Source: Flavobacteriales bacterium
GTDB lineage: Bacteria; Bacteroidota; Bacteroidia; Flavobacteriales_D; Crocinitomicaceae
DNA length: 64,000 bases
NCBI GenBank assembly: GCA_947449575.1
Contig: CANFRV010000006.1
Span: 62,001 to 126,000, forward strand
Direction: 5' to 3'
Position numbers and translations under genes: made by a program. This document shows positions 757 to 30,327 of the stretch, piece after piece. The notes under the pieces were generated by a model. That model saw only the letters and a list, made by a program, of their open reading frames with translations, did not search any database and had not been told where the DNA came from. Every line of letters begins with the position of its first letter. Position 1 is the first letter of the stretch.

Positions 757-768
757 TAATTTTAGCCT

Positions 769-1701: not shown

Positions 1702-1777
1702 ATAATCTTGTCGTTCAGTTGTTTATACTATCGAATTATTTATTTACATTTATAAAAATATTTTAAACTAATATATC

Positions 1778-1882
1778 ATGGCAAAAAGTCAAGACGCAAA
1801 GAAAAACGTTAAAAAAGAAGCAACAAAAACAACAAAAGAAAAAAAAGCGGAGAAAAATCTAAAAAAAGCGGCTAAAGCTTAA
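1778..1882 (+). CDS. 34-residue lysine-rich basic peptide
   Basis: A short ORF starts at the ATG at 1778 and ends with TAA at 1880-1882. It encodes MAKSQDAKKNVKK followed by more Lys/Ala/Glu/Thr, with about 15 lysines in 34 residues and no hydrophobic segment. Short proteins opening MAK(S/G)QDAKKNVKKE are, from my memory, recurrent in Flavobacteriia and usually unannotated. The composition suggests a nucleic-acid-associated or histone-tail-like peptide, which is inference only. It lies between the EamA gene and the convergent M23 gene. No convincing promoter was found. Confidence 0.65.
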   Translation: MAKSQDAKKNVKKEATKTTKEKKAEKNLKKAAKA

Positions 1883-1893
1883 ATAATTCGATT

Positions 1894-12832: not shown

Positions 12833-12846
12833 TTTTTTTAATGGGT

Positions 12847-13171
12847 ATATTTTTTGAAGTATATAAGGGATTTAAGAACATGTTAGTTTTGTGGGTATTG
12901 AGAAAGTAAGACTGTTATATTTTTTGAACCATATAAGGGGTTTAAGAACATATAAGGGTTGTGGGTAATGGGAAAAAAGGGTTGTTTTTTTAACCATATA
13001 AGGAATTTAAGAACATATAAGTTTTTTGGGTGACTGGGAGGAAAGTAAGAGTACTCTATTTTTTTGAGCCATAATAAGGAGTTTAAGAACATATGAGGGT
13101 TGTGGGTGATGAAAAAAAGGGCTATATTTTTTGAATCATGTAAGGGATTTAAGAACATATAAGTGTTGTGG
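12847..13171. repeat. Five-unit imperfect tandem repeat, unit about 65-76 bp
   Basis: The motif TTTAAGAACA recurs at 12871, 12941, 13006, 13082 and 13148 (spacings 70, 65, 76 and 66). In each unit it is preceded by CATATAAGG-like sequence and a T-rich TTTTTTGA run, and followed by ATATAAG-GTTGTGGGT and a purine-rich stretch. The array fills the gap between the PurF-family gene and the histidine kinase gene. The reverse strand is open across it (12883-13218) only because the repeat keeps a near-multiple-of-three phase. Confidence 0.9.
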
Positions 13172-15657: not shown

Positions 15658-17211
15658 TTATAATTTAAAGATTGAAATATTTTTAAATGACCCAATTTTA
15701 TTTCTTGTATAGATTGAAATTGTTGAATCTTTAGAAAGAATTTCATCCGTAATGATAAGATATTTTACATGGTTTTTTAGTGCGTTTTCAATACCTTCTT
15801 TTATTGTATTTTTATCATTGCCCAGCAACGTATATCCTTTTTGATCCATAAAAGATAAAGTGATATTAGGACTCACATCAGGTATAAAATAGACTAAGTC
15901 CGTTCTTTTTAAACCAATTTTTCTAAGGTATGGTTCAACTGTTTCTGAGGACCCAATTTTTGTCGCGTAATCCCATTTTAGCCAATCCCAATATTTATGC
16001 TCGTCCTCTGAAAGAAAGTGTTCAGTAATGAAGGTATTATTGCTAAAATATTTAATTCTCGTTTTTGCGATACCGAAGCAAAATGAAATGACTAAAGTAA
16101 TTATTAACAGTACATGCGTAAGTTTAGATGTAAAAATTGAATTAAAATTATTTTGAAGAATTTTAAAAAAAGTCAAAAATAACACAGGGATAAGAATATA
16201 AAAATCAAGTAAATAGTAATCGTGGACATTTAAGTTCGCAAACCATAGTAAAATAAAAAGAATCAATTCCATTAAAATTGAAAATAGAAAGACCAATAAA
16301 TACCGGTTTACTTTTTTATGATTGAAAACGATGAAAAATAGTATTCCAAAGAGTAAAAAGATAAATCCGACATGATAAAATTCTGGTAAAACAAATTCAA
16401 CAAAGCGATTCCAAATCTCAATTTTATTAGGAGTTTCCCAAATAGGTCTAATTGTAGATAAAAAATAGATCGAACGATTTTGTATATTATAATCTTTCGA
16501 GATTAAAAACCAAACGATTAAAAGTAACGCAGGAATTGATAAAAGGAAGTAATCGGCTAATTTTTTATTGAAATAATTCTTTTTCAGAACTCCAATCATT
16601 TCCAAAAACACAAGTAAATAAATGGGCAGAATACCCATCATCATAGTAGGTCTTAACAAAACCGAAAATGTTAAAAGAAAGCTTGAAAATAGTAATGTTT
16701 TTAAATTCTTTGTCTGCAGATACGTGTAGAAATAATACCAACCCATAAAAAGTAGCCCAACTGCAGGAAGATTGACAAGAAAATTATTAGAATAATACCC
16801 AAATAGGGGAGATGAAAAAATAAAGAGAGGACAAAAGAGGGAATAAAAAAGATTATTCAAATAATGGTGACAAATTTTAAATAAGAAAAATAAACCTAAA
16901 AATACAATGCATAAATTTAGTAGTCTGGGAGTTATATAATTTTGACCAGTAATTTTCCAAACAGCAGCATTTACATAATATATAATAGGAAATTCACCAA
17001 CGGCCTTTCCATTAATCGATGATTGAGAATGAATTTTAGGTTCAAATAAATTCATACCTTCTTCGAAATAATTCTTTGTAATGGAGATTGCATCTGCTTG
17101 TCGCCATTGATGAATCGAGGAAGGAGGATATTTAATTGAAATTTGTAATTTATACAGGAATGATACAAGTACGAATAATAAAATAAAAATTAGATTTTTA
17201 TATTTTTCCAT
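15658..17211 (-). CDS. GT39/PMT-like polytopic membrane glycosyltransferase
   Basis: 517 residues with about 11-12 hydrophobic helices. The first periplasmic loop carries SIHQWRQADAISITKNYF, the HxWRQAD...A.N motif of GT-C enzymes of the PMT_2/GT39 group. These transfer sugars from lipid-phosphate carriers to protein or lipid on the periplasmic side. The C-terminal 120 residues form a soluble domain. The acceptor and donor are unknown. It lies convergent with gpmI and upstream-adjacent (22 bases) to the RHS-like secreted gene on the same strand. Confidence 0.8.
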   Translation of the reverse strand: MEKYKNLIFILLFVLVSFLYKLQISIKYPPSSIHQWRQADAISITKNYFEEGMNLFEPKIHSQSSINGKAVGEFPIIYYVNAAVWKITGQNYITPRLLNLCIVFLGLFFLFKICHHYLNNLFYSLFCPLFIFSSPLFGYYSNNFLVNLPAVGLLFMGWYYFYTYLQTKNLKTLLFSSFLLTFSVLLRPTMMMGILPIYLLVFLEMIGVLKKNYFNKKLADYFLLSIPALLLIVWFLISKDYNIQNRSIYFLSTIRPIWETPNKIEIWNRFVEFVLPEFYHVGFIFLLFGILFFIVFNHKKVNRYLLVFLFSILMELILFILLWFANLNVHDYYLLDFYILIPVLFLTFFKILQNNFNSIFTSKLTHVLLIITLVISFCFGIAKTRIKYFSNNTFITEHFLSEDEHKYWDWLKWDYATKIGSSETVEPYLRKIGLKRTDLVYFIPDVSPNITLSFMDQKGYTLLGNDKNTIKEGIENALKNHVKYLIITDEILSKDSTISIYTRNKIGSFKNISIFKL

Positions 17212-17233
17212 AGTATAGCATTATTGACAGACG

Positions 17234-18148
17234 TTACTCATAAAATTCATATCCTTGAAAACGTAAAATCATGATAAAATTCGTTTGCACTTCTCGCGTT
17301 AAAACAGAGGATAATAAGTTTGTATCAAGGTTGTAAATAATTTGAATATCGGTTGTAAAAACACCTTTTTTATAGACATGTTTTTCGATTAGATTTCCAA
17401 AATGATCATATTTAAAAAGCCATTCCTCAGCAAAAACGCCATTTGAATTCGCAGCGGAGCGGATGGCAGATAAATACCCTTTCTCATTATATTCATAGAG
17501 ATATTTTGTCTTACCTGAAGTCATTTTCAGACTTTCAACTCTTTCTATCAAATAACCGTCTGCATTGAAATAACTTATTTCATCCATGTATGGCAATTCA
17601 TAGCTATTATAAATCGTTTTTTTCTTCTGCAGAGAAGAGGAAATATCATATTTCATGAACTCTTTATTCAGAATAATACTTCGTTCCAATTTTCCTTCTT
17701 TAGTACAAATGTCGCGGTGTGTTTCTTCAGAAATAACTCGACCCAATGAATCAGTTTCATATTGAATGGAAGAATATCCACCCGTATCTTTTTTTCTATG
17801 AATAAGTAGTTGATTTTTATCGGAATACATGTAAATATTATTCACTGTGTCTTTGATGCCATTTTCTGTGCGTGTTTCAAAAGTAGATACAATCCGTCCT
17901 AAAGTGTCAAATTGATAGATGCTTTTGAATTCCGTTTTACGCATTATATCGCCTACTTTTTTGAACGTGTATTCACCTTTAAGACTTTTTATTTTATTCT
18001 TTTTGATAAATACTTCATTAAAAAAAGGCTCATCTGTAAATGCTAAACCACGTTTATTATCTAAAATTTGAGAATTCAAGATAGTATGCAGAATACAAAA
18101 AAGAAGGGATAATTTTTTCACAACACAAAAGTAATGCAAAATCTTCAT
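17234..18148 (-). CDS. Secreted protein with RHS/YD-like repeats, function unknown
   Basis: 304 residues. The N-terminus (about 1-26, KKLSLLFCILHTILNSQ) looks like a signal peptide. The body has repeated Y/F-x-x-x-G-x-L/I segments (YQFDTLGRIVST, YETDSLGRVISE, YEYNEKGYLSAI, FKYDHFGNLIEK) like the beta-hairpins of RHS/YD repeats. It has no toxin tip or large core. Such short RHS-like secreted proteins are common and uncharacterised in Bacteroidota. It probably shares a transcript with the GT39 gene downstream. An internal start is possible but the signal peptide favours 18148. Confidence 0.7.
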   Translation of the reverse strand: MKILHYFCVVKKLSLLFCILHTILNSQILDNKRGLAFTDEPFFNEVFIKKNKIKSLKGEYTFKKVGDIMRKTEFKSIYQFDTLGRIVSTFETRTENGIKDTVNNIYMYSDKNQLLIHRKKDTGGYSSIQYETDSLGRVISEETHRDICTKEGKLERSIILNKEFMKYDISSSLQKKKTIYNSYELPYMDEISYFNADGYLIERVESLKMTSGKTKYLYEYNEKGYLSAIRSAANSNGVFAEEWLFKYDHFGNLIEKHVYKKGVFTTDIQIIYNLDTNLLSSVLTREVQTNFIMILRFQGYEFYE

Positions 18149-18168
18149 CTAAAAAGGTGATTTAAGTT

Positions 18169-18176
18169 TAACTTTG
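18169..18176 (+). promoter_or_regulatory. Putative Bacteroidota -7 element
   Basis: TAACTTTG matches TAnnTTTG and lies 30 bases before the ATG of the Hsp70-family gene. No clear -33 TTTG is visible. Confidence 0.4.
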
Positions 18177-18206
18177 TTAAATTGAAAAATAATTTTACAA
18201 GAATTG

Positions 18207-19493
18207 ATGCAAGCGCATTTTTACGGAATTGATTTCGGGACAACTAACTCGGTGCTGTCTATTTACGACAGAAATCGTAAGGAAATTATAAAAACATTCT
18301 CAATTCCATCGATACTGTATTTCCCCATTCATCAAAATTCAGGAAATAGTATTCAAACATTAGTTGGTAATGATGCAATTAAAGCATACATGGACGATGG
18401 GATGAAAGGAAGATTGATGAAATCTATTAAGCAAGTTTTGGCTATTCCTAGTTTTACGGAAACAAGAATTGGAAATCAACAATTTACAGCTTCTGACTTA
18501 GTATCTTTGCTTCTGCTCGATTTGAAAAAAAAGGCAGATTTATTTATCGGCTATGCGTGCTATTCTGCCATCATTGGAAGGCCCGTTTTTTTTGATGATG
18601 AAAATTCAACAAAAGATAAACTAGCACAAACACGTTTATTATTAGCTGCCGAAAAAGCTCAATTTTCTTCTATTCGTTTTCAATTTGAACCTATAAGTGC
18701 GGCATTTGCATATGAAAAGATGCTATCTAAAAAGGAGAAGGTTTTAGTTGCTGATTTAGGAGGGGGAACCACTGACTTTACATTTATTGAACTAGACCCT
18801 TTAAAATCTGGAATTGTAAATCGGAGAAGTGATATTATAGCAACTGGGGGAGTGTACGTTGGAGGCGATAGTCTAGATGCAAGTTTTATGTGGGCAAAAG
18901 GAACTCCACACTTTGGTAGGGGAGTCAAGTATGAATCTATGCCAGGAAAAATGGTCGATTTACCAACTTCTTTTTTTCAAAATATTTGTTCCTGGAAAGA
19001 AATGATTTTTTTCAACGGTCCAAAAGTCAGAAATAGTGTTAATCAGTATTATGTCTATACCAAACGGAACAAATTAGTTAAAAATCTCATCACTTTGATT
19101 GATAATAATCTTGGGTTTTCGTTATTTCAAGCAATTGAGACGACAAAAATTGAATTATCAGAAAAGTGTAAATCTTCGTTTTATTTTTCAAGAAACGAAA
19201 TAGAAATCAATGAAGAAATAGAGTTGGAGGAGTATAATTCAATTATTCAGCCAGATATTTTTGCGATTCAAAAGTATTTAAATCAATTTTTAGATACTAA
19301 TCAAATTAATATTTCTGAAATTGACAGCTTGTTTATCACAGGAGGTACCTCTATGGTAGGAGCTATCCAGACTTTATTCAAAGAGAATTTCCCTTTAATT
19401 CCCATTCAAACAGGAGATAATTTTTTAAGTGTTTCGCAAGGTTTAGCATTAAGTGAATACTTATTTAATGACTATGATGAAGTCACGTTATGA
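18207..19493 (+). CDS. Hsp70-family (YegD-like) ATPase
   Basis: 428 residues from ATG 18207 (a TTG one codon earlier is less likely). The actin-like ATPase fold shows phosphate loops YGIDFGTTNS near the start and VADLGGGTTDF in the middle, and the adenosine motif FITGGTSMVGA near the end. The protein ends soon after the ATPase domain, so the DnaK substrate-binding domain is missing, as in YegD-type proteins. Its role is unknown; such proteins are not general folding chaperones. It ends one base from the convergent VWA gene, leaving no room for a conventional terminator. Confidence 0.87.
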   Translation: MQAHFYGIDFGTTNSVLSIYDRNRKEIIKTFSIPSILYFPIHQNSGNSIQTLVGNDAIKAYMDDGMKGRLMKSIKQVLAIPSFTETRIGNQQFTASDLVSLLLLDLKKKADLFIGYACYSAIIGRPVFFDDENSTKDKLAQTRLLLAAEKAQFSSIRFQFEPISAAFAYEKMLSKKEKVLVADLGGGTTDFTFIELDPLKSGIVNRRSDIIATGGVYVGGDSLDASFMWAKGTPHFGRGVKYESMPGKMVDLPTSFFQNICSWKEMIFFNGPKVRNSVNQYYVYTKRNKLVKNLITLIDNNLGFSLFQAIETTKIELSEKCKSSFYFSRNEIEINEEIELEEYNSIIQPDIFAIQKYLNQFLDTNQINISEIDSLFITGGTSMVGAIQTLFKENFPLIPIQTGDNFLSVSQGLALSEYLFNDYDEVTL

Positions 19494-19494
19494 A

Positions 19495-20946
19495 TTATTT
19501 CTTAAAACAAATAAAGCGAATTTCCTCTTTTAGGTTGTTTCTTGCGTCAACCAATTTGTTGATAGGAATATAACGACCACCAGCTAATTCACTTATTTCT
19601 TGCATAGAAATTTTATCTTTTTCTTTATTAAGAATCCCTACAACGGACATATTAATTCCTTTTTTCTTATACTTTTTGATGCATTTTTTGTAATCATCGT
19701 TGCTACCACTAAACGCACCATCGGTAATCACAATTACCTGATTTGTGCCATTTTCCAAAAAGCCTTTCAATGCTTGTTTATACCCCAATTTAATTCCAGC
19801 TCCACCAGCTGTTGAGCCGCCCACTTTTATTGAGCTAACTAGACTTTTGATTTCATCTTTGTTAGCACCGGATGTTATTGGTAATAAAATTGCGGCATTT
19901 GTTGCATAGGTCACTATTGATATTTGGTCTTGTTTTCGCAACATTTCAGTTAAGGCATACAAGGAGAATTTCATTAATTCTAATTTTTCTCCAGCCCTCA
20001 TAGATGCTGAAACATCTAAAATAAAAGTGACATTTATAGGGTTAAAATTGGTTTCATTAAAATCATTTTTATCTAATTCTGAAAATTGAATCGGGACTTC
20101 AGGATAGATTACAGGAGTTTGAACAACCGTCTCTTTTTCCAATTGGTTTTCTAAATTTTGTTCAATCGGAATTAAAATTTCAGCAGGTTTATTTTGAGAT
20201 ATAATATCTGGCTTTTCTTCTGCGACCAACTCAGGTTTCTCTTCTGGCACAATTGGAGTAGCAACTGGTTTCTTTTCTAATTCAAGTAAAACATAATTTT
20301 GTTTGAAATTTACATATCCACCTAATTCTTTTGGGTAATAACCATCATGTGTGGCATAGAAATACGTAAATCCAAGCGGAATTTTTTGTTTAATTTCTCC
20401 TTTTTTATCGGTAAAATAATTACCGATCGGTATTCCATTTTGAATAATAATAACATTAGATTGTTCTATTACTTTTCTAGTCACTTTATCAATCGTTACA
20501 ACCGTAATTTCAAAATCAGTCGCATGTTTTCTTGATTGAGGAGTAGAATTAAAATCAGGACAAGCCTGCAAGGAGCTTTCATTTGTAGAAGCAATCTCAG
20601 TCATGTTACCTGTTAATTTAATAATCGTTGGCTCGGCTTTATCGCTTGTATATATTTGAACATCGTACGAAAATCTCCCTTTTTGATTTTGATTAACTTG
20701 CAGTCGAACAACAATAGTATCTCCTTTTTCTAGAAATTGCCCGTTCACCAAGTAGACGATATTGGCCGGTTTTTTTACGCTTAATAGATATTCTTTTTTT
20801 GCGCCTATGTTTGTCACTAGTATATCAACAAAACGATCGGAGGTATTTGTTAAATTTCCAAAATCATGTTTTGTTTTTTCAAAAACTATTTGTGAAAACG
20901 AAGAAAATAGAGATGAACAAAAAAAGAGTATGAGAAGTATTTTCAT
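19495..20946 (-). CDS. Secreted DUF1573-like/VWA domain protein
   Basis: 483 residues. A signal peptide (1-19) is followed by a DUF1573-like Ig domain (about 20-115, FEKTKHDFGNLTNTSDRFV), a carboxypeptidase-regulatory-like sandwich (about 140-225), a Pro/Glu/Lys-rich linker (226-285), and a von Willebrand factor A domain (about 303-480). The MIDAS metal residues are intact: D311-x-S313-x-S315, T379 and D409. It is expected in the periplasm or at the surface as a Mg2+-dependent adhesion or assembly module. It is convergent with and almost touching the Hsp70-family gene. Confidence 0.85.
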   Translation of the reverse strand: MKILLILFFCSSLFSSFSQIVFEKTKHDFGNLTNTSDRFVDILVTNIGAKKEYLLSVKKPANIVYLVNGQFLEKGDTIVVRLQVNQNQKGRFSYDVQIYTSDKAEPTIIKLTGNMTEIASTNESSLQACPDFNSTPQSRKHATDFEITVVTIDKVTRKVIEQSNVIIIQNGIPIGNYFTDKKGEIKQKIPLGFTYFYATHDGYYPKELGGYVNFKQNYVLLELEKKPVATPIVPEEKPELVAEEKPDIISQNKPAEILIPIEQNLENQLEKETVVQTPVIYPEVPIQFSELDKNDFNETNFNPINVTFILDVSASMRAGEKLELMKFSLYALTEMLRKQDQISIVTYATNAAILLPITSGANKDEIKSLVSSIKVGGSTAGGAGIKLGYKQALKGFLENGTNQVIVITDGAFSGSNDDYKKCIKKYKKKGINMSVVGILNKEKDKISMQEISELAGGRYIPINKLVDARNNLKEEIRFICFKK

Positions 20947-21592
20947 GTTTCAAATGTACTTGTTTAGAAAATAAGATACAAACGGAATTGTTTAAATATG
21001 TAGGTGTATAACGAGTAATTAAATTTTGGTTGCATAAAATAAATAATCTACTTCTAAAAATAGAAACGCATACTTTTTATCAGAGGACAAGATACTAGTA
21101 ATTTATCAATGATGAAAAATTTTAAGTAAAATCAAATTTAAAACAATAAAATACTCATTTTTTATGAATTAATATTTTTTTATTAAATGCTTATATCTAA
21201 AGGATTATAGAACGATTTTAATATTTATTAATTAGTTTAAACTAAAAAATAAACAATAAATAAGTGTTTAGTTCAATTATTTTATTTAGACTTGTACTGT
21301 TAAATAAAAAAGGAATTAAATTCAAGCTAAAAACACAGTTACAACTAAATCTAAATAAGGTTAAATAATTGACAATGGTAAAATTAGAAGAAATTCTTAC
21401 TGGATATTTTATGTGAAATTAATAAGGGAAAGTAAAAAAAAGGAAGTGCTACAACACTCCCTCTAAAAGACGCACATAATTTTGGATTGTAGACCATTTT
21501 ACATGCGCATCTATACATCAGTGCGAAGCTGAAAATACTTTTGTAAAGATAATTGTTTTAATAGAGTAGGCGATTTTATAAATAAAGATTAA
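20947..21592. other. 646-base AT-rich intergenic region upstream of the RiPP locus
   Basis: No ORF of convincing length occurs on either strand, and base composition turns strongly AT-rich from about 21000. A 13-codon ORF starts at 21375. A weak hairpin with one mismatch lies near 21443-21463. A TACTTTTG sequence at 21536-21543 fits the TAnnTTTG -7 consensus 50 bases before the precursor ATG, without a clear -33 box. The region probably holds the promoter for the peptide locus. Confidence 0.5.
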
Positions 21593-21742
21593 ATGAAAAA
21601 TTTTCAAGAAAAAGAGATTAAGGATTTGAGCAGCGTTACTGGAGGATTGGATATCTATTTAACAGTAAAAATTGAAAATGCTTTTGATGGAATAAAAGGC
21701 AATACAGTGCTTGTTCCTGATTGCAAAATAGAGATTAAATAA
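21593..21742 (+). CDS. Grasp-with-spasm RiPP precursor peptide (double-glycine leader)
   Basis: 49 residues. The leader MKNFQEKEIKDLSSVTGG ends in a double glycine preceded by LSSVT, the usual cleavage-site context for C39 peptidases. The 31-residue core that follows (starting LDIYLTVKIENAFDG) has one Cys (C44), several Thr/Lys and Asp/Glu residues that could be cross-linked by an ATP-grasp ligase. The assignment rests on its position just upstream of ATP-grasp and SPASM maturase genes and on the leader shape. The core lacks a repeated TxKxPSD-type microviridin motif, so the ring pattern cannot be predicted. A hairpin follows eight bases after the stop. Confidence 0.8.
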   Translation: MKNFQEKEIKDLSSVTGGLDIYLTVKIENAFDGIKGNTVLVPDCKIEIK

Positions 21743-21749
21743 ATTTAAT

Positions 21750-21780
21750 AAGGGTGTTATATCTAAAATATGGCACCCTT
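21750..21780 (+). promoter_or_regulatory. Hairpin between RiPP precursor and maturase genes
   Basis: Arms AAGGGTGTTATAT (21750-21762) and ATATGGCACCCTT (21768-21780) pair over 13 positions, two of them G-U, around the loop CTAAA. There is no T run after it on the + strand, so it is not a standard terminator. Position suggests partial termination or an mRNA-stabilising 3' end that keeps precursor mRNA more abundant than maturase mRNA (inference). Confidence 0.7.
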
Positions 21781-21798
21781 AAATCACAATTTAAGAAT

Positions 21799-22542
21799 AT
21801 GACTTTATACTTGTACCTTTTTTCATTATTGTTTACTCGTTTTGAAACTGTTTCTATTTTAGATAAATCAAAATTATATGTTTACGACGTTTATTTTATT
21901 GAGCAAAATGGAGATACATTAACAAAAGAGAAAATAAGTTTTAAGCCGAGTGATAATCCTTGGAAATATCAAAAAGAATATCAAAAAGAAATTGAATATA
22001 TTTATATGCCAGATTATAGTGGTCTGCAAAGATTTATTCATCCACTCAAAGGATTCGAAAAACGGATTGAACGTAATACAAAGAAATCTTTCAATCGTAA
22101 ATCTTGGTCTAATTATACTTGGATAAATAAATTTGAAAAAACTGGCTTTGTGGAATCTGATTCTATACTTTGGATTCATCCTCCAAGAAGCAATCAATAT
22201 TGTTATAATGATTTGACAGCTTTTCCAGAAGTTAAGTTTAATGAACTTAAGGAAGGAGGTAAATGGGAGTCAAAAACTTACATTTTAAAAGGCTATCCCA
22301 GTAATAAAGAATTTGTGGGAATTAGAAATGATTCATATAAAGTCGAACGCCTATTATCATACCCTCTATTCAGTCAACAACTAGAAGAATGTTGGTTGAT
22401 TGAAACAACGAGTACCCATAGTAAATTACCTGAAAGCCGAGCTAATTTTATTTTTCATAGAAATTATGGCTTTATATCAATGGAGTATTTTTTTTATAAT
22501 GGTATAAAAATCATTTATAAACTTCAACAAATTGAAATTTAA
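21799..22542 (+). CDS. Unknown protein of the RiPP locus, signal-peptide-like N-terminus
   Basis: 247 codons from ATG 21799; an in-frame GTG at 21754 lies inside the hairpin and is unlikely to be used. The N-terminus MTLYLYLFSLLFTRFETVS resembles a signal peptide or anchor. The rest is a mixed alpha/beta soluble chain rich in aromatic and basic residues, with ECWLIETTSTHS and FIFHRNYGFISMEYF near the end. I recognise no enzyme motif. Its stop overlaps the ATP-grasp start (TAATG), so it is translationally coupled to the maturase. If exported, it might serve in peptide handling, immunity or surface display; none of these is shown. Confidence 0.75.
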   Translation: MTLYLYLFSLLFTRFETVSILDKSKLYVYDVYFIEQNGDTLTKEKISFKPSDNPWKYQKEYQKEIEYIYMPDYSGLQRFIHPLKGFEKRIERNTKKSFNRKSWSNYTWINKFEKTGFVESDSILWIHPPRSNQYCYNDLTAFPEVKFNELKEGGKWESKTYILKGYPSNKEFVGIRNDSYKVERLLSYPLFSQQLEECWLIETTSTHSKLPESRANFIFHRNYGFISMEYFFYNGIKIIYKLQQIEI

Positions 22543-23501
22543 TGATTATAATATTTTCTACTTCCAATGATCGCTCTATAGCAAATATTGTTGAATATTT
22601 AAATAAATACAAACAGAAATTTCATATAATCAATTTAGGAGAATTAAAATCTACTAATTTTCAAATTATTTTCGAGAAAAATCAGCTTGTTATTAAAGTT
22701 ATTTTAGTAAGTGGAGAAATTTTAGATTTTGATTGTATAAAATGTTTTTTTTTTCGAAGTAGTAAAATAAAAAAAGGGCAGATTAATATAGCTTCTCTTA
22801 TTGGATTTGACAACGATATTGCTAAGACCTACTTTGACTTAGATGAAAATACATTAATAGACTTCATTTATAGGAAAATTATGGAAAAATCTTTAGGTTG
22901 GTTAAATCAAAAACCAATTAATAAGTTGATCCAAATTGATTTAGCTCAAAAATGCGGATTAAAAATTCCTGATACATTTATTTGTAATTCCAAAAGAGAA
23001 TTGCAAATAATCACAAAGAAAGAGTTTCTTTTGACAAAGGCTATCCAAGAAAATATTGCATTTCAAGATTTAAATAAGATATGTTTTCAGAGAGTTTCTA
23101 AAGTTGAAGTTAAAGATTTACCTGATTTTTTTTTAACGTCCTTATTTCAGGAAAACATAGAAAAAGATTTGGAAATTCGAACATTTTTTTTGGAGAATAG
23201 CTTTTATTCAATAGCTGTTTGTAATGTAAAAAACACGATTGATATGAGAGATAATTACTCAACCCATCAATATTACAAGTGTAAATTACCCATAGAAATC
23301 GAGTATAATTTAAATAAATTAATGAAGTTATTAGGTTTAATATCAGGTTCAATTGATTTGATTTTATCAAATAATAAGGATTATTATTTTTTAGAAGTCA
23401 ATCCTGAGGGTCAGTATGATTGGGTGTCCGTTTTTGGAGGTTATAATTTAGATGAAAAAATTGCAAAATATATGATTAATTATGAAGGAGTTAGTTACTA
23501 A
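22542..23501 (+). CDS. gwsG: Grasp-with-spasm ATP-grasp peptide maturase
   Basis: 319 residues, the length of graspetide ATP-grasp ligases (microviridin MdnB/C type). These activate Asp/Glu side chains with ATP and join them to Ser/Thr/Lys side chains of a precursor peptide. The N-terminal pre-ATP-grasp part begins MIIIFSTSNDRSIANIVEYL. The metal/ATP-binding end motif is FLEVNPEGQYDW (E285, N287), matching the family's LExNPxGQ signature. It overlaps the upstream gene by one base and the downstream 61-codon ORF by 20 bases. Codons are extremely AT-rich, more so than in the flanking housekeeping genes. Confidence 0.9.
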   Translation: MIIIFSTSNDRSIANIVEYLNKYKQKFHIINLGELKSTNFQIIFEKNQLVIKVILVSGEILDFDCIKCFFFRSSKIKKGQINIASLIGFDNDIAKTYFDLDENTLIDFIYRKIMEKSLGWLNQKPINKLIQIDLAQKCGLKIPDTFICNSKRELQIITKKEFLLTKAIQENIAFQDLNKICFQRVSKVEVKDLPDFFLTSLFQENIEKDLEIRTFFLENSFYSIAVCNVKNTIDMRDNYSTHQYYKCKLPIEIEYNLNKLMKLLGLISGSIDLILSNNKDYYFLEVNPEGQYDWVSVFGGYNLDEKIAKYMINYEGVSY

Positions 23502-23667
23502 AGTACAGCAAAGAAAAATAAAAGAAGTTAAAATTGATTATCCTATATTTTTTATGTTCGTTCAAAAAATTGAATATGAATTAATTGAACAAACTTTAGA
23601 AAGTAAATATTATTCAAATAAAAATTTCAAACCAGAACATTTTTATAAAAATATTATTAAGATATGA
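23482..23667 (+). CDS. 61-residue unknown protein between the two maturase genes
   Basis: The ORF starts inside the last 20 bases of the ATP-grasp gene and its TGA overlaps the SPASM gene's ATG (ATGA at 23664-23667). The protein is basic and helical-looking, with KIDYPIFFMFVQKIEYELIEQ in the middle and EHFYKNIIKI at the end. It has no signal peptide and no Cys. Tight overlaps on both sides support translation and co-expression. It could be a precursor-recognition or adaptor subunit, a second substrate, or a split-off part of the SPASM protein; I cannot choose. Confidence 0.65.
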   Translation: MKELVTKVQQRKIKEVKIDYPIFFMFVQKIEYELIEQTLESKYYSNKNFKPEHFYKNIIKI

Positions 23668-24626
23668 TTCTATATGCACAGCAAAATATTAGTAAAGGAT
23701 ATTTAAAATCAATTTATATTGATTTTTATAATTCAAAATATAGTTCTTTTGACAAAAATAAAATTTCGAAAAGTCATAATTCTCAATTAACTAGAGAAAA
23801 TTATTTAGATTGGAATAATCCAAGTGCGATTACTAATTCAATTATTTGCTTGAAAAATATTGATTTATTTGAAAAAATATTAAATTATTTAGAGCAAGCG
23901 ATTTGTAAACACATCGTTCTTCATTTTATAGATTTTCTTTCCATCGTAGAGATAAAAACCTATATTAATAAGTTGTTAGATTATAATATTCAATCAGTTA
24001 TAATTATTTGTCAATATCATGAAATTTATTTTAGCGATGAATTTGGAGATTTAATAATGGATTTAAAAATAAATAAAAAATTATTTATACTAAATAGCCC
24101 TTTTGAAAAAAATTTTGAGGATACCATGTTTTTCACTTTAAAAGAAAAAGAGTATAATTATTTAAAAAGGAAAAATGAATTCGTATCAAATATTAGTCTA
24201 TTTTCAGAATCACAGTTACACCACACCTACTTCAACAGAAAACTTTACATTGGGCCGACAGGTGAAATAAAAAACGCCCCAGAAACTGAACAAGTTTTTG
24301 GTTACATTCAAGATATTACGGAAGATGAATTAAAGGAGATTATTTCATCACGCCATTTCCAAAAATATTGGTTTGTTCACAAAGGGTTAATTGATGTTTG
24401 CAAAGACTGTGAATTCCGGCATATGTGTGTCGATAATAGAGTTCCAATTGAAAGAAAAAGTAATGAGTGGTATAATTCATTGGAATGTAATTACAATCCA
24501 TATATAGGGAAATGGGAAGGTGAGGAGGGTTATCTAAGTTTGGCAGACTGTGGAGTTATTTCTAATGAAATAGGGTTTATTATAGATCATGAAAAAGTCC
24601 GAAAAATTAATTCCCTTAGTGAATGA
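23664..24626 (+). CDS. gwsS: Grasp-with-spasm SPASM-domain peptide maturase (no radical-SAM site)
   Basis: 320 residues. The C-terminal SPASM-type iron-sulfur region has C246, C249 and C255 (CKDCEFRHMC), C275 and C296, with LYIGPTGEIKNAPETEQVFG before it, typical of SPASM proteins. The N-terminal 190 residues contain no CxxxCxxC radical-SAM motif; only isolated cysteines are present. This matches the grasp-with-spasm family, in which the partner of the ATP-grasp enzyme keeps SPASM but not the radical-SAM cluster. Its exact chemistry is unknown. It is the last gene of the locus, followed after 80 bases by a terminator. Confidence 0.88.
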   Translation: MILYAQQNISKGYLKSIYIDFYNSKYSSFDKNKISKSHNSQLTRENYLDWNNPSAITNSIICLKNIDLFEKILNYLEQAICKHIVLHFIDFLSIVEIKTYINKLLDYNIQSVIIICQYHEIYFSDEFGDLIMDLKINKKLFILNSPFEKNFEDTMFFTLKEKEYNYLKRKNEFVSNISLFSESQLHHTYFNRKLYIGPTGEIKNAPETEQVFGYIQDITEDELKEIISSRHFQKYWFVHKGLIDVCKDCEFRHMCVDNRVPIERKSNEWYNSLECNYNPYIGKWEGEEGYLSLADCGVISNEIGFIIDHEKVRKINSLSE

Positions 24627-24631
24627 TTCTT

Positions 24632-24690
24632 CAAATAATTAAAAGTCAAATAAATGTTAATTATTTTCTATCTAAAAGAGGATAATTCCA
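24632..24690. repeat. 59-bp intergenic repeat, copy A
   Basis: Matches 25717-25775 without gaps at 49 of 59 positions, including an identical 22-base core (ATAAATGTTAATTATTTTCT plus AT). It begins five bases after the gwsS stop codon and is followed by a terminator hairpin. Confidence 0.8.
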
Positions 24691-24706
24691 TAACTTAATG
24701 CATAAA

Positions 24707-24732
24707 AAAAGACCTGCCGAAACAGGTCTTTT
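24707..24732. terminator. Bidirectional terminator after the RiPP operon
   Basis: AAAAGACCTG (24707-24716) pairs perfectly with CAGGTCTTTT (24723-24732) around a 6-base loop. It lies between gwsS and the convergent lipoprotein gene and can serve both. Confidence 0.88.
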
Positions 24733-24753
24733 AAATTTAAATTCATCAAATAA

Positions 24754-25470
24754 TTACCATTTATCAAGCTCTTTCTCAAGTTCTTTTTCAAGCCCACCAT
24801 ATTTGTAAATTCCTTTAGCAGCTTTTGCTCCTACTTTTAACATTGCTTTAGCAGCAGCATCTAATTCTTCTCCAGCATCTTCAGATTCTGATTCAGATTC
24901 TGATTCTGATTCTGAATCATCTGATGAGCCGGATGATGCACTTTCTTTTCCATAATTTTCATTTACAGCTAATATAGAAGATAATTTAACTTTTTTAGCC
25001 TTAGTTGGATCCGGTCCATCCATTCCTCCTCCTGCACTAAACTCTAACCAAAGTGTTTCGCCTGCTTTCAAAGATCTCATTGTTACGAAAGGATCATTTC
25101 CATAAGCACCTAAACTACTTTCTAAAGGTAAATCATTATCGCCTAATAAATCAGCCTTAATATCGTACTGATATATTGCCCCAGAACCTTCATGCTCGAA
25201 TTTCAAATGATCTACATCAAAACCCTCAAATGGAACATCCGTTCGTTTTACCTCCACCATTAATTTGCCGCCAAATTTTTCTAATTTCAATACCGCTTTA
25301 GTTACTTCATAGTATTTAGAAAAATCTCCTGTCATTCCTTTGTCGACAGTTAATGGAAAATCTCCAATTTTTTTCTCTGGTTCTTTTTCTTTACTTCCTC
25401 CACCACAACTTGTTAAAATAGTAGCTGAAACAAATAACATTGCTCCAAAATTCATAATTGTTCTTTGCAT
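24754..25470 (-). CDS. Lipoprotein with Ser-Glu repeat tract, unknown function
   Basis: 238 residues. A lipoprotein signal (ATILTSCGGGSKEKE, Cys at about 22) places it in the outer or inner membrane. Residues about 35-170 form a beta-rich domain without a family I recognise. Then come a low-complexity acidic tract (DDSESESESESESED, about 185-200) encoded by repeated GAATCA/GATTCT codons, and a helical C-terminus ending LEKELEKELDKW. The tract is prone to length variation by slippage. The gene lies between the two copies of a 59-bp repeat and is convergent with the RiPP operon. Confidence 0.75.
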   Translation of the reverse strand: MQRTIMNFGAMLFVSATILTSCGGGSKEKEPEKKIGDFPLTVDKGMTGDFSKYYEVTKAVLKLEKFGGKLMVEVKRTDVPFEGFDVDHLKFEHEGSGAIYQYDIKADLLGDNDLPLESSLGAYGNDPFVTMRSLKAGETLWLEFSAGGGMDGPDPTKAKKVKLSSILAVNENYGKESASSGSSDDSESESESESESEDAGEELDAAAKAMLKVGAKAAKGIYKYGGLEKELEKELDKW

Positions 25471-25716
25471 AATTTAGTTTTTAATTAAGTTTTTCTTACT
25501 CTTAAGGATTTTCAGATTTCTCCCCGTAATTACAATTAGCTTACATGCAAAAATAAAAATACTATTCTTATAACAATGAAAAAAAACATTTTTTTGTAAG
25601 ATGTTATTTTTCATAAAGACAAATAATTTATATGTTACATTTTTTTAATCTCAAAAATCTTCTATTTTAGGTCATTAAAAAGACCAAAAAATTAATTCAG
25701 CTATTCAATCATTTTT

Positions 25717-25775
25717 CAAATTATTAAAAATAAGATAAATGTTAATTATTTTCTATTGAAAAGACAGTGATTCCA
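25717..25775. repeat. 59-bp intergenic repeat, copy B
   Basis: Same-orientation partner of 24632-24690 (49 of 59 identical). It too is followed by a terminator hairpin 35 bases on. The rest of the 25471-25859 gap is AT-rich upstream sequence of the lipoprotein gene with no ORF. Confidence 0.8.
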
Positions 25776-25810
25776 GAAGATAATCCCTGAATCAAAAACT
25801 AGATGTAATG

Positions 25811-25840
25811 AAAAAAGCTATCCGTAAGAATAGCTTTTTT
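25811..25840. terminator. Terminator for the OmpA/LysM gene
   Basis: AAAAAAGCTAT (25811-25821) pairs with ATAGCTTTTTT (25830-25840), an 11-bp perfect stem with T tracts on both strands. It is placed 20 bases past the stop of the leftward gene ending at 25860. Confidence 0.88.
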
Positions 25841-25859
25841 GTTTTTATTTCATCGCTGA

Positions 25860-27689
25860 TTATCTTAACAATAATTTTGTTCCAGGTACAAGATTATTAT
25901 TTTTTAGATCATTGATTCTTCTTAAGTCTGCCAATGGGATTTTTGTATTAACAAAAACTCTATATAAGGTTTCTCCTTCTTGTGTAATGTAAAAACCATT
26001 TATTATATTCTTCGCTTGCTCCTCTGAAATAGGAATATTTGTCCTGAAGATCGTTTTTCCATTTGATTTTTTTGCTGTTTTAACAGTTTTGACTGAAGTT
26101 TCTAAAGGGTTTGACGATTCATTTACTGAAGCGATTTCAGCAGCTTCAGCTTCCGTAATGTCAGCAAATCTTTCATCTCCTTCTTTTCTTAAAACAAATT
26201 CTGTTCTACGATTCAATTGATTTTGCTTCTCGGTACACTTCGTTTTTTTGTCGCTGCTTTCACAATCACATTTAGCGATTAAACGAGTTTCACCATATCC
26301 TTTTCCATTAATACGTTCAGGTTTCGTGATTCTTTCTTTGATATATAATGCAGAAGCTTTAGCACGTTTTTTTGATAAAATCATATTTGATTCATCACTT
26401 GCCTGACAATCTGTATGAGAACCTAGTTCAATTTCTATCTCAGGATTATCATTCATTATTTTTACAATTTTATCCAATTCTTTGGCTGCATCCTTACGAA
26501 TTGCAAATTTAGCTACGTCAAAATAAATTGGATTTACGATAAGGTCAACATTTGTAACAGGTGGTTTAGGTTCATTAATTTCTACTGTAACTTCAGCAGT
26601 TTGCCCAATGTTGTCTGTGATAATAGCTGTATATGAGCCTTTTGAAAGATTTCTAGGGTCTTCTTGTTTAGAATTGTTAGACCAAATAATATTATATGGA
26701 GTGACCCCGCCTTCGATTGTTAAATCTATATTCCCATCAGAACCTTGATACGTCGTAACATTAGAAACAACAGCACTTGCTACCAATGGCGGTGGCGGTG
26801 GCGGTGGAAGTATCGTCGCATAGTAGATATCGCTATTTTCGCTTTCTCTGTTACTAGCCCAATATACTTTATTACTTGAATATGAAAAGTAACCGTCAAA
26901 TTTCGGTGAATTAATAGTAGTTCCTAAATTTATTGGAGCTGACCATTCTGTCCAAGAACCTTGTTTCGTGGAATAAAAGATATCAGCATCACCAGAACCT
27001 CCTAGTCCATTACTTGAAAAGAACAAGGTGTCTTTTGTAACGGATAAGAATGGGGAGATTTCAAAGCCAGTAGTATTGATTACATTTCCCATATGAACGG
27101 GAGCAGACCATGCGCTTCCTTCTTTTGTTATAACGTATAAATCTTCTTGTCCAAGCGATCCAGGGCCTTGGTAACTGACAATCATACTATTTTCGTCACT
27201 GCTGATATAGAAACCATATGCATCACCCTCGATATCTAATGTAGGAATTTCTACGTGACTTGGATTTTGATAAGTATCCCCTTTTTTCATTGAAATAGCA
27301 GCCCCTTTTTTGAGGTAATTATTTTTAGCTTGTGACTTAAATTTATCGTACGAATCTAAAACATATACTGAAGATCCATCTTTGCTAAGACCAAAAACTG
27401 CGTTGTGAGATTTATTATTTAATGCATTTATAGGTTCAGATTTCACAAATTCACCATTTTCTTTCAAACTAAACCAAATCTCTCCATTGAGTTCGTTATT
27501 TTCACCAGTAGGTAAAACTCTTGAAAAGTATAATGTAGAACTATCGGAAGAAAATATAGGTAAAGTTTCCTCTGCTTCTGTATTAATACAAGCACCCAAC
27601 CTGACAGGAGCAGAAAAATTTCCCATTTGTGCATTTACTGCAAAACCAAAACCTAAAAGAATTGTGAGTAGAAATAAATTTTTATTCAT
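25860..27689 (-). CDS. Envelope protein: PD40 propeller, SprB-like repeat, OmpA, LysM
   Basis: 609 residues. A signal peptide (1-20) is followed by a WD40-like (PD40) beta-propeller (about 30-290: FSSDSSTLYFSR, DTLFFSSNGLGGSGDADIFY), a seven-proline run (about 294-300), and an SprB-type repeat (about 305-370). The OmpA peptidoglycan-binding domain (about 380-500) has IYFDVAKFAIRKDA and GSHTDCQASDESNMILSKKRA. A C-terminal LysM-like segment (about 560-609, YITQEGETLYRVF) ends the chain. Two cell-wall-binding modules plus a propeller suggest an outer-membrane-to-peptidoglycan link, perhaps supporting T9SS or gliding machinery. It is a monocistronic gene with its own terminator. Confidence 0.88.
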   Translation of the reverse strand: MNKNLFLLTILLGFGFAVNAQMGNFSAPVRLGACINTEAEETLPIFSSDSSTLYFSRVLPTGENNELNGEIWFSLKENGEFVKSEPINALNNKSHNAVFGLSKDGSSVYVLDSYDKFKSQAKNNYLKKGAAISMKKGDTYQNPSHVEIPTLDIEGDAYGFYISSDENSMIVSYQGPGSLGQEDLYVITKEGSAWSAPVHMGNVINTTGFEISPFLSVTKDTLFFSSNGLGGSGDADIFYSTKQGSWTEWSAPINLGTTINSPKFDGYFSYSSNKVYWASNRESENSDIYYATILPPPPPPPLVASAVVSNVTTYQGSDGNIDLTIEGGVTPYNIIWSNNSKQEDPRNLSKGSYTAIITDNIGQTAEVTVEINEPKPPVTNVDLIVNPIYFDVAKFAIRKDAAKELDKIVKIMNDNPEIEIELGSHTDCQASDESNMILSKKRAKASALYIKERITKPERINGKGYGETRLIAKCDCESSDKKTKCTEKQNQLNRRTEFVLRKEGDERFADITEAEAAEIASVNESSNPLETSVKTVKTAKKSNGKTIFRTNIPISEEQAKNIINGFYITQEGETLYRVFVNTKIPLADLRRINDLKNNNLVPGTKLLLR

Positions 27690-28045
27690 TGTAGTTGTTG
27701 TTTATAATCTGGTTTAATATTTTAATTTATTAATTAAAAAACAAGTTTTTACTTAATAATAGTAACTAACATTTTCTCAAATTTTAAAAGAGATCTCTAG
27801 ATTTTCGAAGTTGTGCACTCAAATATCTGATACTTTTCGTTTTACAAATGTATGTAAAACTAAACATTATTGTAGGATCACTTTTAGCAGTTCTGGTTCA
27901 AAAATAAGAAAAAGTTGATTGTAGAGCACGATTTATCGAAAAAAAAAACGATTAATTTTTTAAAAAAGGAAATGGCAAAATCATGAAAGTGAGTGACTAG
28001 GCAGAAAGCAAGTGTTTTTACGTAGAATTTTTTAATCGATTTTTT
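27690..28045. other. 356-base intergenic region
   Basis: Upstream region of the OmpA/LysM gene and downstream region of the hydrolase gene. It is AT-rich, with TACATTTG on the minus strand at 27852-27845 as a possible -7 element, which would give a leader of about 150 bases. I see no ORF, RNA gene or strong hairpin. Confidence 0.4.
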
Positions 28046-28807
28046 TTACCGGAGACAAAATTCTAGGACTGTATTAATGAATTTTATAGGTGATTCAGCG
28101 TGAACCCAATGTCCTGCATCCTCAATTGTGATTAAACTCATATCCGGAAATTGAGTTTCTAATTGATCGAGATCTTCCTCTAAGATATAATTGGAGAGGG
28201 AACCTCTAATAAATAAAGTAGGGAGTAAAATTTCAACGTCAGGAAGTGGAGCAAGGATGTTTTTCATTTCGCGATCCAAAATCGAAATATTCATTCGCCA
28301 CGCTAAACGGTCTTTCTCTTTCCAATAAAGATTTTTTAATAAAAATTGACGAACACCCATGGACGAAATAAAATTGGATAGAATTACTTCGGCTTCATTT
28401 CTAGTATGAATTTTTTCTAAATCAATTGAATATAATCCTTTTAATATTTCAGCATGATGCAATGGATACTCTTTTACGCCAATATCAACAACGATTAATT
28501 TTTCAATGTATTTTGGATGCTTTTGTGTAAATTGTATAGCGGTTTTCCCTCCCATTGAATGGCCTAGTAAAATCACTTTTTTTAAATCTAGGTCTTCGAA
28601 TAGTTCTTCTAAATCTTGGGACATTAATTCATACGAAAATTCATCGCTCCATTCGCTATGACCATGATTTCTTTGATCAACAAGTATTACTCGATAGTAT
28701 TCTGCTAGTTTTTTCGCATGCGTTTGCCAATTATCAGAACTTCCAAAAAGACCATGTAAAATGACCATTGGCTGCCCTTCACCCATTTCTCGAATATGTA
28801 ATTTCAT
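28046..28807 (-). CDS. Alpha/beta-fold hydrolase (YbfF-like esterase)
   Basis: 253 residues with the complete catalytic set: oxyanion region HGLFGSSDNW near the start, nucleophile elbow GHSMGGKTA (Ser near residue 89), and C-terminal His in DAGHWVHAESP. This matches the YbfF/YbaC-type acyl esterase group more than epoxide hydrolases or lipases. It has no signal peptide, so it is cytoplasmic. The natural substrate is unknown. It lies 35 bases downstream of the HMA lipoprotein gene on the same strand and may be co-transcribed. Confidence 0.88.
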   Translation of the reverse strand: MKLHIREMGEGQPMVILHGLFGSSDNWQTHAKKLAEYYRVILVDQRNHGHSEWSDEFSYELMSQDLEELFEDLDLKKVILLGHSMGGKTAIQFTQKHPKYIEKLIVVDIGVKEYPLHHAEILKGLYSIDLEKIHTRNEAEVILSNFISSMGVRQFLLKNLYWKEKDRLAWRMNISILDREMKNILAPLPDVEILLPTLFIRGSLSNYILEEDLDQLETQFPDMSLITIEDAGHWVHAESPIKFINTVLEFCLR

Positions 28808-28842
28808 GAGATAGAATACTTATTATCTTATTCTTTTGGCGA

Positions 28843-29382
28843 TTAATTAACGAAAAATCGAGATAATAGATTTAAAAAATTTGGCATTTCAATTTTTGAG
28901 GTCGAACTTTCTATTTTACAATCTGCACTTTCACTTGCGCAATTTTCAGCTGTAGGACAACTAGATTTTTCTGGGCAACATTTACTAGAAGTTTTAGTGT
29001 TATATTCTTCTGAAGAAGTCGCACCTATTTTAAATTGTTTTTCATTTAATTTTGAAAGAAGTTCTACGATTTTATCGACCGTAATTTTATCCTTGTCAAA
29101 TGCAATTTTTGCGGTATTTGATTTTCTTCCTTCTTTGAAATCAAACTCAACAGAAGAAACCGCATTCGTAGAAAACAATTCCTTTCTAATACTTGCCCCA
29201 CATCCCATAACACAAGTCATTCCTTCTATTTCAATTGAAAGAAGGCGGTTCGATTTTACATCTTTCGGAACTATTTTGCTACTTTCTTTCGGATTACTAA
29301 CGGGTGTTTTTTCTGAAGAACAAGCTCCAAAAAGTAGAAGACTAATTAAAAATAAAATTTGTTTGTTCATCGTAGATTTCAT
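28843..29382 (-). CDS. Heavy-metal-associated (HMA) domain lipoprotein
   Basis: 179 residues. A lipoprotein signal (LFLISLLLFGACSSEK, Cys near residue 21) is followed by a ferredoxin-like HMA domain (about 48-125). Its metal loop reads GMTCVMGCG, with CxxxC spacing rather than the usual CxxC. The C-terminal 45 residues are Cys-rich (KCCPEKSSCP, NCASESADC), giving six more cysteines. It may bind Cu, Zn or Hg in the periplasm (inference). A second Met four codons in is an equally possible start. No metal ATPase gene is adjacent. Confidence 0.82.
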   Translation of the reverse strand: MKSTMNKQILFLISLLLFGACSSEKTPVSNPKESSKIVPKDVKSNRLLSIEIEGMTCVMGCGASIRKELFSTNAVSSVEFDFKEGRKSNTAKIAFDKDKITVDKIVELLSKLNEKQFKIGATSSEEYNTKTSSKCCPEKSSCPTAENCASESADCKIESSTSKIEMPNFLNLLSRFFVN

Positions 29383-29715
29383 TTTAAATAATAGTAAACC
29401 TTTGAAATAGATTTATTCTCATGTAAAAGTAATTGATTCAATCGTCATTTTAAATAAAAAGATGTTAAAAAATGCAATAAATGGATCTTTGCGCGCTAAG
29501 CTAAGTGATTGAGAATATATTTAGAAGACGATAATTCATCCTGTTACTCTTTAGAATGTTCCTAATTATTGATTAACGCATTTATATTCAGTGTTTTGAT
29601 TCTAATATAAAAAAGTACAATTCCTTTTTGCAAGAGATTTTAAGATGACATAGTCACATTTGACTTTGAGAGGATTACCATATTTTTTTTTAACTTTGTA
29701 CCTTAAATTCCATTC
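29383..29715. other. 333-base divergent intergenic region before engB
   Basis: AT-rich promoter region between the HMA lipoprotein gene (minus) and engB (plus). The engB promoter is placed at 29665-29698. No ORF or RNA gene is visible in the rest. Confidence 0.45.
29665..29698 (+). promoter_or_regulatory. Putative Bacteroidota-type promoter of engB
   Basis: TTTG at 29665-29668 and TAACTTTG at 29691-29698 are separated by 22 bases, fitting the -33 TTTG / -7 TAnnTTTG pattern. The start codon follows 17 bases after the -7 element. Confidence 0.55.
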
Positions 29716-30327
29716 ATGATTATTAAAGAAGCAACTTTCGTAGTTTCCAACTCCGATTACAGATTATGTCCAACTGATGGGAAACCTGAATTTGCCTTTA
29801 TTGGTCGATCCAATGTGGGAAAATCCTCTTTAATAAATATGTTAACGGGGAATAAAAAATTAGCTAAAACTTCTGGAACACCGGGAAAAACGCAATTAAT
29901 TAATCATTTCGAAATCAACAAGGAATGGTATTTAGTCGATTTGCCAGGATATGGTTTCGCGAAGGCATCAAAACAAGCACGTGTTAAATGGGAAATATTT
30001 ATTTCTGAATATTTGATTAATCGTGATTCGTTGATGAATGTTTTTGTGCTGATTGATTCAAGGTTAGAACCTCAGCAAATTGATTTAGAATTCATGAATT
30101 GGTGCGGTCAAAAGCAAATCCCATTTTGCATTGTATTTACTAAAATTGACAAAATTTCAAGTTCTGTTTTAGGGAAAAATCTAGCGAAATATAAAAAAGA
30201 AATGCTTAAATCTTGGGATGAAATACCACCCGTATATACTAGCTCAAGTGAATCTGCTTTCGGAAAAGAAAAAATATTAAATTATATTGATTTGATAAAT
30301 GTTTCTTTGAAAGAAGTGAAAAAATAG
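29716..30327 (+). CDS. engB: Ribosome biogenesis GTPase EngB (YihA/YsxC)
   Basis: 203 residues, normal length. The Ras-like GTPase motifs are intact: G1 GRSNVGKSSL, G3 DLPGYGFAK, G4 TKID and the G5-like SSSES. EngB assists late assembly of the 50S subunit in the cytoplasm and is essential in many bacteria. It is monocistronic, facing a convergent BI-1-family gene. Confidence 0.96.
   Translation: MIIKEATFVVSNSDYRLCPTDGKPEFAFIGRSNVGKSSLINMLTGNKKLAKTSGTPGKTQLINHFEINKEWYLVDLPGYGFAKASKQARVKWEIFISEYLINRDSLMNVFVLIDSRLEPQQIDLEFMNWCGQKQIPFCIVFTKIDKISSSVLGKNLAKYKKEMLKSWDEIPPVYTSSSESAFGKEKILNYIDLINVSLKEVKK

Follow-up and report, generated by a model that had tools for sequence, protein, structure and literature searches.

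The DNA analysed here, called the window throughout, is a stretch of 64,000 nucleotides (nt) from a Flavobacteriales bacterium of the family Crocinitomicaceae (contig C6, positions 62001-126000, of a 3.53 Mb genome, our G000). The system in question is a cluster of five genes on its plus strand, gwsA, orfX, gwsG, orfY and gwsS, of the grasp-with-spasm type of ribosomally synthesized and post-translationally modified peptide (RiPP) clusters. All five frames are open (Table 1). A structured leader RNA precedes the precursor gene gwsA, and the interior of the cluster is replaced as a block relative to L035, the corresponding cluster of a congeneric genome (G019). The preliminary description of this DNA had named the precursor, an ATP-grasp ligase and a SPASM protein, and all three lie where it placed them. 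Its word "complete" has to be amended: orfX and orfY, which it left unnamed, are part of the cluster too, and the genome's C39 exporter, of which we found just one, is on another contig (C35:15923-16285), beside HlyD- and TolC-like genes behind a second grasp-with-spasm cluster.

Table 1. Genes, exchanged block and leader RNA elements of the grasp-with-spasm cluster, in window coordinates
Feature	Position	Strand	Description	Basis
gwsA	21593-21742	+	precursor, 49 amino acids (aa); leader residues 1-18 (21593-21646, ends GG), core 31 residues	same leader in L035
orfX	21799-22542	+	247 aa; alternative GTG start 21754	
gwsG	22542-23501	+	ATP-grasp peptide ligase, 319 aa	TIGR04192 match, motifs
orfY	23482-23667	+	61 aa, LPL position, YPI ... 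HFYKNIIKI	position
gwsS	23664-24626	+	SPASM-domain maturase, 320 aa; constant SPASM part from ~24201	TIGR04193 match
Exchanged cassette	21653-24200	+	core, orfX, gwsG, orfY, 5′ part of gwsS	identity to G019:C1
Structured 5′ leader RNA	21442-21571	+		pair counts on 19 leaders
P1 hairpin	21442-21461		loop CTACAA (21449-21454) complementary to TTGTAG 21487-21492 (kissing loop)	
Leader RNA stem	21471-21474 with 21504-21507			
DUF805b-type pseudoknot	GCT 21528-21530 with GGC 21569-21571		around GAAAA (21531-21535) and AGAGTA (21563-21568)	

The cluster is real, and it belongs as a divergent member to an established RiPP architecture. GwsG matches TIGR04192 with 167.6 bits (E 4.2e-49), the SAV_5884, MvdC and MvdD families coming next, and GwsS matches TIGR04193 with 118.8 bits (E 3.5e-34). 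A double-glycine (GG) precursor upstream, an ATP-grasp ligase, a SPASM protein, an extra uncharacterised protein and a small protein before the SPASM gene also make up the graspetide loci of branch 5, with its "LPL" small proteins, in the covered parts of Makarova et al. 2022 (PMC8939145), and of group 14, the name for the same architecture in those of Carter et al. 2026 (PMC13097080). Therefore, the kind of system is already known, and it is assigned here by gene layout; the window differs in its OrfX, which forms a separate small family. A TIGR04192 match was present in 40 of 240 genomes of the window's family. With 57 stretches around such matches examined alongside the window, 46 clusters had both gwsG and gwsS, and 40 of the 46 also had a small GG open reading frame (ORF) upstream, as called by script. 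A profile of the window ligase and its three nearest relatives gave four strong matches (503-521 bits, in G000, G019, G077 and G032), the next scoring 201 bits; at E<=1e-30 it reached 24 of 399 genomes of the order, all within the window's family, and the search for related loci returned one distant ligase only. The order precursor-X-G-small-S is common to the window, L035, L072 (the cluster of G077, from another genus) and the first cluster of L045.

The precursor passes at its leader/core junction from DLSSVTGG into LDIYLTVKIENAFDGIKGNTVLVPDCKIEIK, and no NCBIfam or Pfam model matched it beyond chance. Its relatives stand at the equivalent place: L035 has a peptide with an identical 18-residue leader (E 1e-11), L072 has two related peptides (E 0.0025 and 0.0037), and L045 has a GG peptide without significant similarity to the window precursor. 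The preliminary description had proposed a short precursor, easily overlooked, in a grasp-with-spasm type cluster and had asked for a peptide at the same place in homologous clusters; the profile matches and the peptides of L035, L072 and L045 bear this out. It had also seen no standard motif in the core, which does not agree with what we read by eye, namely a Thr eight residues before an Asp (T-x7-D) in five of six subfamily cores (LTVKIENAFD in the window, FTVDPVGFFD in L035, FTVHHSGFGD in the second L035 precursor, TVEQDENGD in L072 and TANWEGWFD in L045). A second Asp follows 11 residues further on in three cores, those of the window and both of L035. This recurrence suggests an ester link between Thr24 and Asp32 in the window peptide, which is therefore our best guess, with Thr24 as the predicted acceptor and Asp32 and Asp43 as the predicted donors. 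The second precursor of G019 (L035:4438-4656) is out of frame with its ATG. As for the claim that the product would be new, no product for this graspetide group was found described in the literature covered; a new core alone is unsurprising, new cores being the rule in branch 5, whose loci the covered part of PMC8939145 describes as highly diverse in their cores.

The motifs of GwsG are intact (LEVNPEGQ, EIRTF, SIDLI), the first being the LExNPxGQ ligase motif that had been reported earlier, and on its sequence GwsG classes as a graspetide-type ATP-grasp ligase with catalytic motifs. Its nearest solved relatives by sequence in the PDB are ATP-grasp ligases, among them 5ig9, 7m4s and 7mgv (CdnC). 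For GwsS, a PDB search with its profile gave weak matches only, the best to the entry named OT3 (E 0.002). Single-sequence structure models were poor (predicted local distance difference test, pLDDT, 36.8 for GwsS and 37.4 for orfX). A CxxC..C motif occurs in the C-terminal part of all 44 GwsS proteins of at least 300 aa. Thioether formation by radical S-adenosylmethionine (SAM) chemistry has been suggested for branch 5 (PMC8939145, covered part). Such chemistry on the core Cys is not favoured here because none of the 44 GwsS proteins has the radical-SAM motif CxxxCxxC and the Cys is not conserved. Specifically, the single Cys of the window core (Cys44) is missing from both L035 cores and from the first L072 core, while a Cys stands at another position in the second L072 core and in that of L045. 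The Radical_SAM profile gave no match at E<=0.01 in the 20 GwsS members scanned.

The protein of orfX contains a conserved HPxRxNQY and is probably exported, judging from its hydrophobic N-terminus; no Pfam or NCBIfam family matched it above cut-off. Its family occupies this place in four clusters, and in L048 a weaker relative (E 1e-7) is located behind gwsS. Other clusters have different upstream proteins, 16 of the 33 upstream ORFs found belonging to one main family; hhalign detected no similarity between orfX and that family (probability 1.5%). An ORF of 49-98 aa stands directly before gwsS in all 46 clusters, although those of L038 and L074 are no more than fragments of a broken gwsG.

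Contig C1 of G019 aligns to window 1894-44350, where C1 ends, at ~93% identity, and within this range only two stretches of at least 300 nt are not covered at 80% identity or more, 21653-24095 and 24672-25662. The first is the interior of the cluster, where DNA identity is ~50% against ~93% beyond the cluster on both sides. Measured in 60-nt steps, identity drops from 1.00 at 21561-21620 to 0.65, stays between 0.35 and 0.73, and is back to 0.93 at 24201; BLAST similarity resumes at 24096. The left edge coincides with the GG codons of the precursor, i.e., with the leader/core junction, and the right edge with the start of the SPASM part inside gwsS. The proteins carry the same signature. Window GwsG is 39%, 44% and 39% identical to those of L035, L072 and the first L045 cluster, and the N-terminal part of GwsS is 41%, 52% and 34% identical, respectively; the C-terminal part of GwsS is 96% identical to that of L035 (132 aa), 67% to L072 and 65% to the first L045 cluster. 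The ligase tree (11 of 20 rows in its careful version) joins the window with L072 (98/96) and L035 with L045a (98/95) and rejects a clade of window and L035 (p-AU 0.0005), whereas the tree of the GwsS C-terminal part (8 of 20) joins the window with L035 (100/99) and rejects window with L072.

The pattern recurs in other clusters. Twelve between-genome pairs share at least one flank at 85% or more (at least 100 nt within 3 kb), and in 11 of them less than 30% of gwsG lies in matches of 70% or better; these replaced pairs span four genera, with two from G000/G019, three from G006/G011, five from G023/G032 and one from G077/G082. When both flanks had to reach 85%, six of seven pairs had a replaced interior, the exception being the collinear pair L068/L071. 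Pairs with in-register end matches, some of them within one genome, lacked gwsG similarity at 80% or more in 26 of 27 cases. The 20 left edges fall between -53 and +59 nt relative to the ATG of the precursor, none of them more than 6 nt beyond GG, and the nine right edges from 527 nt before to 4 nt after the gwsS stop; the lists admit only matches ending up to 120 nt before the ATG or starting up to 10 nt after the gwsS stop, and hence just the upper limit of the left edges and the lower limit of the right edges are unconstrained, with one short match (69 nt, L013/L074) included. Selection alone can hardly explain the long edges (9.7 kb at 93.5% and 3.1 kb at 94%). A second grasp-with-spasm cluster of the window's own genome (G000:C35, L115/L116) likewise has its interior replaced, relative to G019:C67. 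In the literature covered, we found neither the block-exchange pattern nor the long leader RNA described: for branch 5 there is no account of blocks exchanged between the leader/core junction and the inside of gwsS (the words recombin, cassette, breakpoint and swap are absent from the main text of PMC8939145), the covered part of PMC10352776 does not mention grasp, and no paper was found on grasp-with-spasm under that name.

The conserved upstream end of the cluster extends into the leader RNA. GAAAA...AGAGTA with pairing flanks precedes 30 of the 46 precursor starts, in a set in which one start had been moved (L045 7430 to 7475) and to which one had been added (L035 4492). In 29 distinct elements these flanks form 77 of 87 possible pairs, compared with a shuffle mean of 68.8 and a maximum of 76 in 10,000; four of the 30 elements (L045 twice, L036, L058) were probably read with the wrong GAAAA and were kept in this count. 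Five GG ORFs judged not to be precursors (L041 2789, L057 4116, L087 218, L087 1530, L064 4695) were removed before this test and the naive kissing-loop test. Covariation was assessed on 19 long-form leaders, picked because they could be aligned (L072 and L074 left out, L068 used for L071). Of their cells, 85.1% were paired against 38-44% when slid, and there were 56 both-sided changes against 24.7 (standard deviation, sd, 4.4) in shuffles, a number reached in 0 of 500, with covariation scores of 0.295 and 0.164, respectively. Pairing amounted to 96.2% in the P1 hairpin, 96.5% in the pseudoknot and 83.6% in P3. The kissing helix between the P1 and P3 loops was 99.1% paired, with both-sided changes at three of its six pairs, and the naive kissing-loop test with automatic hairpin choice agreed only in part, giving 174 summed base pairs (bp) against a shuffle maximum of 169.

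The pseudoknot with GAAAA and AGAGUA loops at a fixed distance before a start codon is shared with the DUF805b RNA (RF02914), from which the window's long form differs by an added long stem, preceded by two hairpins joined by the kissing loop. RF02914 matched the short-form leaders before the precursors of L061 (42 bits), L047 (34.9), L053 (30.4) and L059 (23.7), and it also matched before that of L035 (17.2), the gathering score being 35.6. The long leader RNA is less new because the short-form leader of L061 exceeds this gathering score. At the window leader itself Rfam reported no match, and the RF02914 score is weak (16.9 bits); over window 17000-30000 and ten loci, Rfam reported no other family at these leaders. 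We found no literature on DUF805b, and the word DUF805 is absent from the DUF805/riboswitch papers listed.

A covariance model (R1) built from the 19 leaders, the window copy included, gave 48 matches at E<=0.01, in 27 of 120 family genomes. Its two matches in the window's own genome both precede gws precursors and are both training sequences. Thirty of the 48 places were read. Of the 36 matches at 45 bits or more, 24 places were read: the script found a GG peptide after 18 of them, and a 31-aa GG ORF follows a 19th (G113), many of these 19 being training sequences; three precede lipoprotein-like genes, one ends close to a contig edge and one has no ORF. Below 45 bits, one of six places read precedes a GG peptide. 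The P1 hairpin gave nothing in a viral-contig scan. Behind one such leader RNA, at L198 (G016:C268), lies a GG-leader peptide with a repeated GNFLTAYD-like core, in a genome that is 83% complete and has no TIGR04192 match. In the window's own genome, DUF805b-like elements also stand 24-27 nt before the ATGs of unrelated proteins (L130, L135, L139 and L147); four of the six readable places outside the window have this spacing, one has 47 nt and one has no ORF.

Considering these observations together, we propose, with a probability of about 0.74, that this is a graspetide cluster of the grasp-with-spasm type which is maintained as an exchangeable specificity cassette. We are more tentative, somewhat short of even odds, about the fuller version, in which a constant frame of kissing-loop RNA, leader and SPASM tail surrounds a swapped specificity block and the long RNA is a new regulatory RNA of GG peptides in these bacteria, extending DUF805b. 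The 49-aa precursor would be made under the control of the structured leader RNA. GwsG would bind the leader and use ATP to link the side chain of Asp32 and/or Asp43 to a Thr of the core, probably Thr24, giving one or two side-chain links with 18 Da lost per link. We infer that GwsS and the small orfY protein act as helpers or make a second modification, which is probably not radical-SAM chemistry. The leader would then be cut at GG and the peptide exported in trans by the genome's single C39 exporter on contig C35, and OrfX may be an exported, cassette-specific partner, perhaps for immunity. Exchange is also reported for the chryseoviridin clusters of Chryseobacterium, with in situ precursor exchange and shuffling between species in the covered part of PMC8939145. 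There, in contrast to the window, whole precursors or the whole locus move, rather than a block bounded by the leader/core junction and a point within an enzyme gene, and the list of genes analysed contains no SPASM protein.

Several points weigh against the exchangeable cassette. The cluster is known here from sequence alone, its exact locus occurs in two genomes only and its subfamily in four. Both enzymes score below the curated NCBIfam equivalog cut-offs (230 for TIGR04192, 175 for TIGR04193), although among the 40 family genomes that match TIGR04192 no more than 18 have a match over its cut-off. The cluster is not the sole difference between the two genomes, as window 1-1893 is unaligned to G019:C1 though C1 continues there. 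The pairs counted are not independent of one another; some of them join non-orthologous clusters from tandem arrays, and some come from a single genome. For the short left edges of lower identity (80-85%, 50-250 nt), selection on RNA and leader without recombination could give the same picture. On the RNA side, further pair types show no excess (36 against 34.5 in shuffles), helices P2 (70.8% paired) and P4 (65.3%) are weakly supported, and the naive kissing-loop count with at least 5 bp (17) lies inside the shuffle range (maximum 18). Furthermore, T-x7-D is a by-eye pattern from six cores only, one of which does not share the frame of its start codon, and it is absent from the second L072 precursor.

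In the agr locus of staphylococci, a hypervariable block with constant ends cuts through genes. The window cluster resembles it in this respect, its variable block comprising the core and the N-terminal part of a partner protein, and orfX changes along with the cassette. The product could thus mark a signalling or kin-recognition specificity group, with orfX or the N-terminal part of GwsS as partner, rather than being a protease inhibitor or toxin. We consider this unlikely: the cluster has no two-component system, neither a sensor kinase nor a receptor gene, its enzymes are other ones, and the characterised graspetides are described as protease inhibitors (PMC8939145, covered part).

An ordinary horizontally acquired cluster, which entered once and then drifted while selection on leader, RNA and SPASM part kept the ends, appears improbable as well. 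The leader and the SPASM part are functional regions, cluster-free sites exist in three congeners (G021:C2, G020:C22, G014:C519), where the flanks lie side by side and are 66-70% identical to the window's, and GC content is low (0.259 in the cluster region against a mean of 0.326, sd 0.027, over 3,034-nt windows). The preliminary description had taken this AT-richness as a sign of acquisition. The region is indeed low in GC, and this is weak evidence because interiors have lower GC than their flanks in 36 of 41 clusters; the sharp block replacement is the stronger evidence of acquisition, as judged from the alignments. Under a single entry followed by drift, it would be difficult to see why the conserved ends pass without a step into gene-bearing flanks at ~93% while the interior is at ~50%, why the ligase tree contradicts vertical descent and why other genera repeat the pattern. 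An origin as a mobile element was also considered and set aside: the window has no tRNA, and no integrase occurs among the window proteins scanned, which cover only part of it. A decaying cluster, in which the precursor is still made and GwsS or GwsG no longer works, is very improbable, since the scores below cut-off, the lack of an exporter in cis and the broken copies in relatives (gwsG of L038 and L074; gwsS of L072, apparently split over two frames) are met by five open frames, intact catalytic motifs, congeneric gwsG and gwsS copies that are open too, and an exporter in the genome.

Partial C39 peptidase frames (58-132 aa) lie beside gws clusters in G011:C11, G032:C33, G023:C32 and G006:C6 and C28; they resemble exporter remnants in tandem arrays, those of G006 being at contig ends, and would fit growth of the arrays by recombination at the gwsS/exporter end. 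Downstream of the window cluster, G019 lacks at the corresponding place ~1 kb (24672-25662) that contains a putative lipoprotein gene (24754-25470). As seen by eye, similar sequences border this stretch near 24652 and 25735, and a DUF805b RNA match (29 bits) lies at 25493-25525, before the putative lipoprotein gene. Further away, window 12839-13171 has internal repeats, which appear as multiple diagonals when it is compared with G019 by BLAST.

As its biosynthetic logic is known and no product of the group was found described in the literature covered, the cluster is reasonably suited to work on graspetide chemistry, for which Thr24-Asp32 supplies a concrete prediction. The conserved leader RNA offers a route to GG precursors missed by annotation and raises a directly testable regulatory question. 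The block exchange amounts to a natural swap experiment that marks cutting points for engineering; it suggests that the leader and the SPASM tail can function together with widely differing cores and ligases. If the cassette is exchanged as proposed, core, ligase and partner genes would be swapped together, and the peptide would be changed in a single recombination event. The exchange points to diversifying selection on the product, which may lie behind the swaps.

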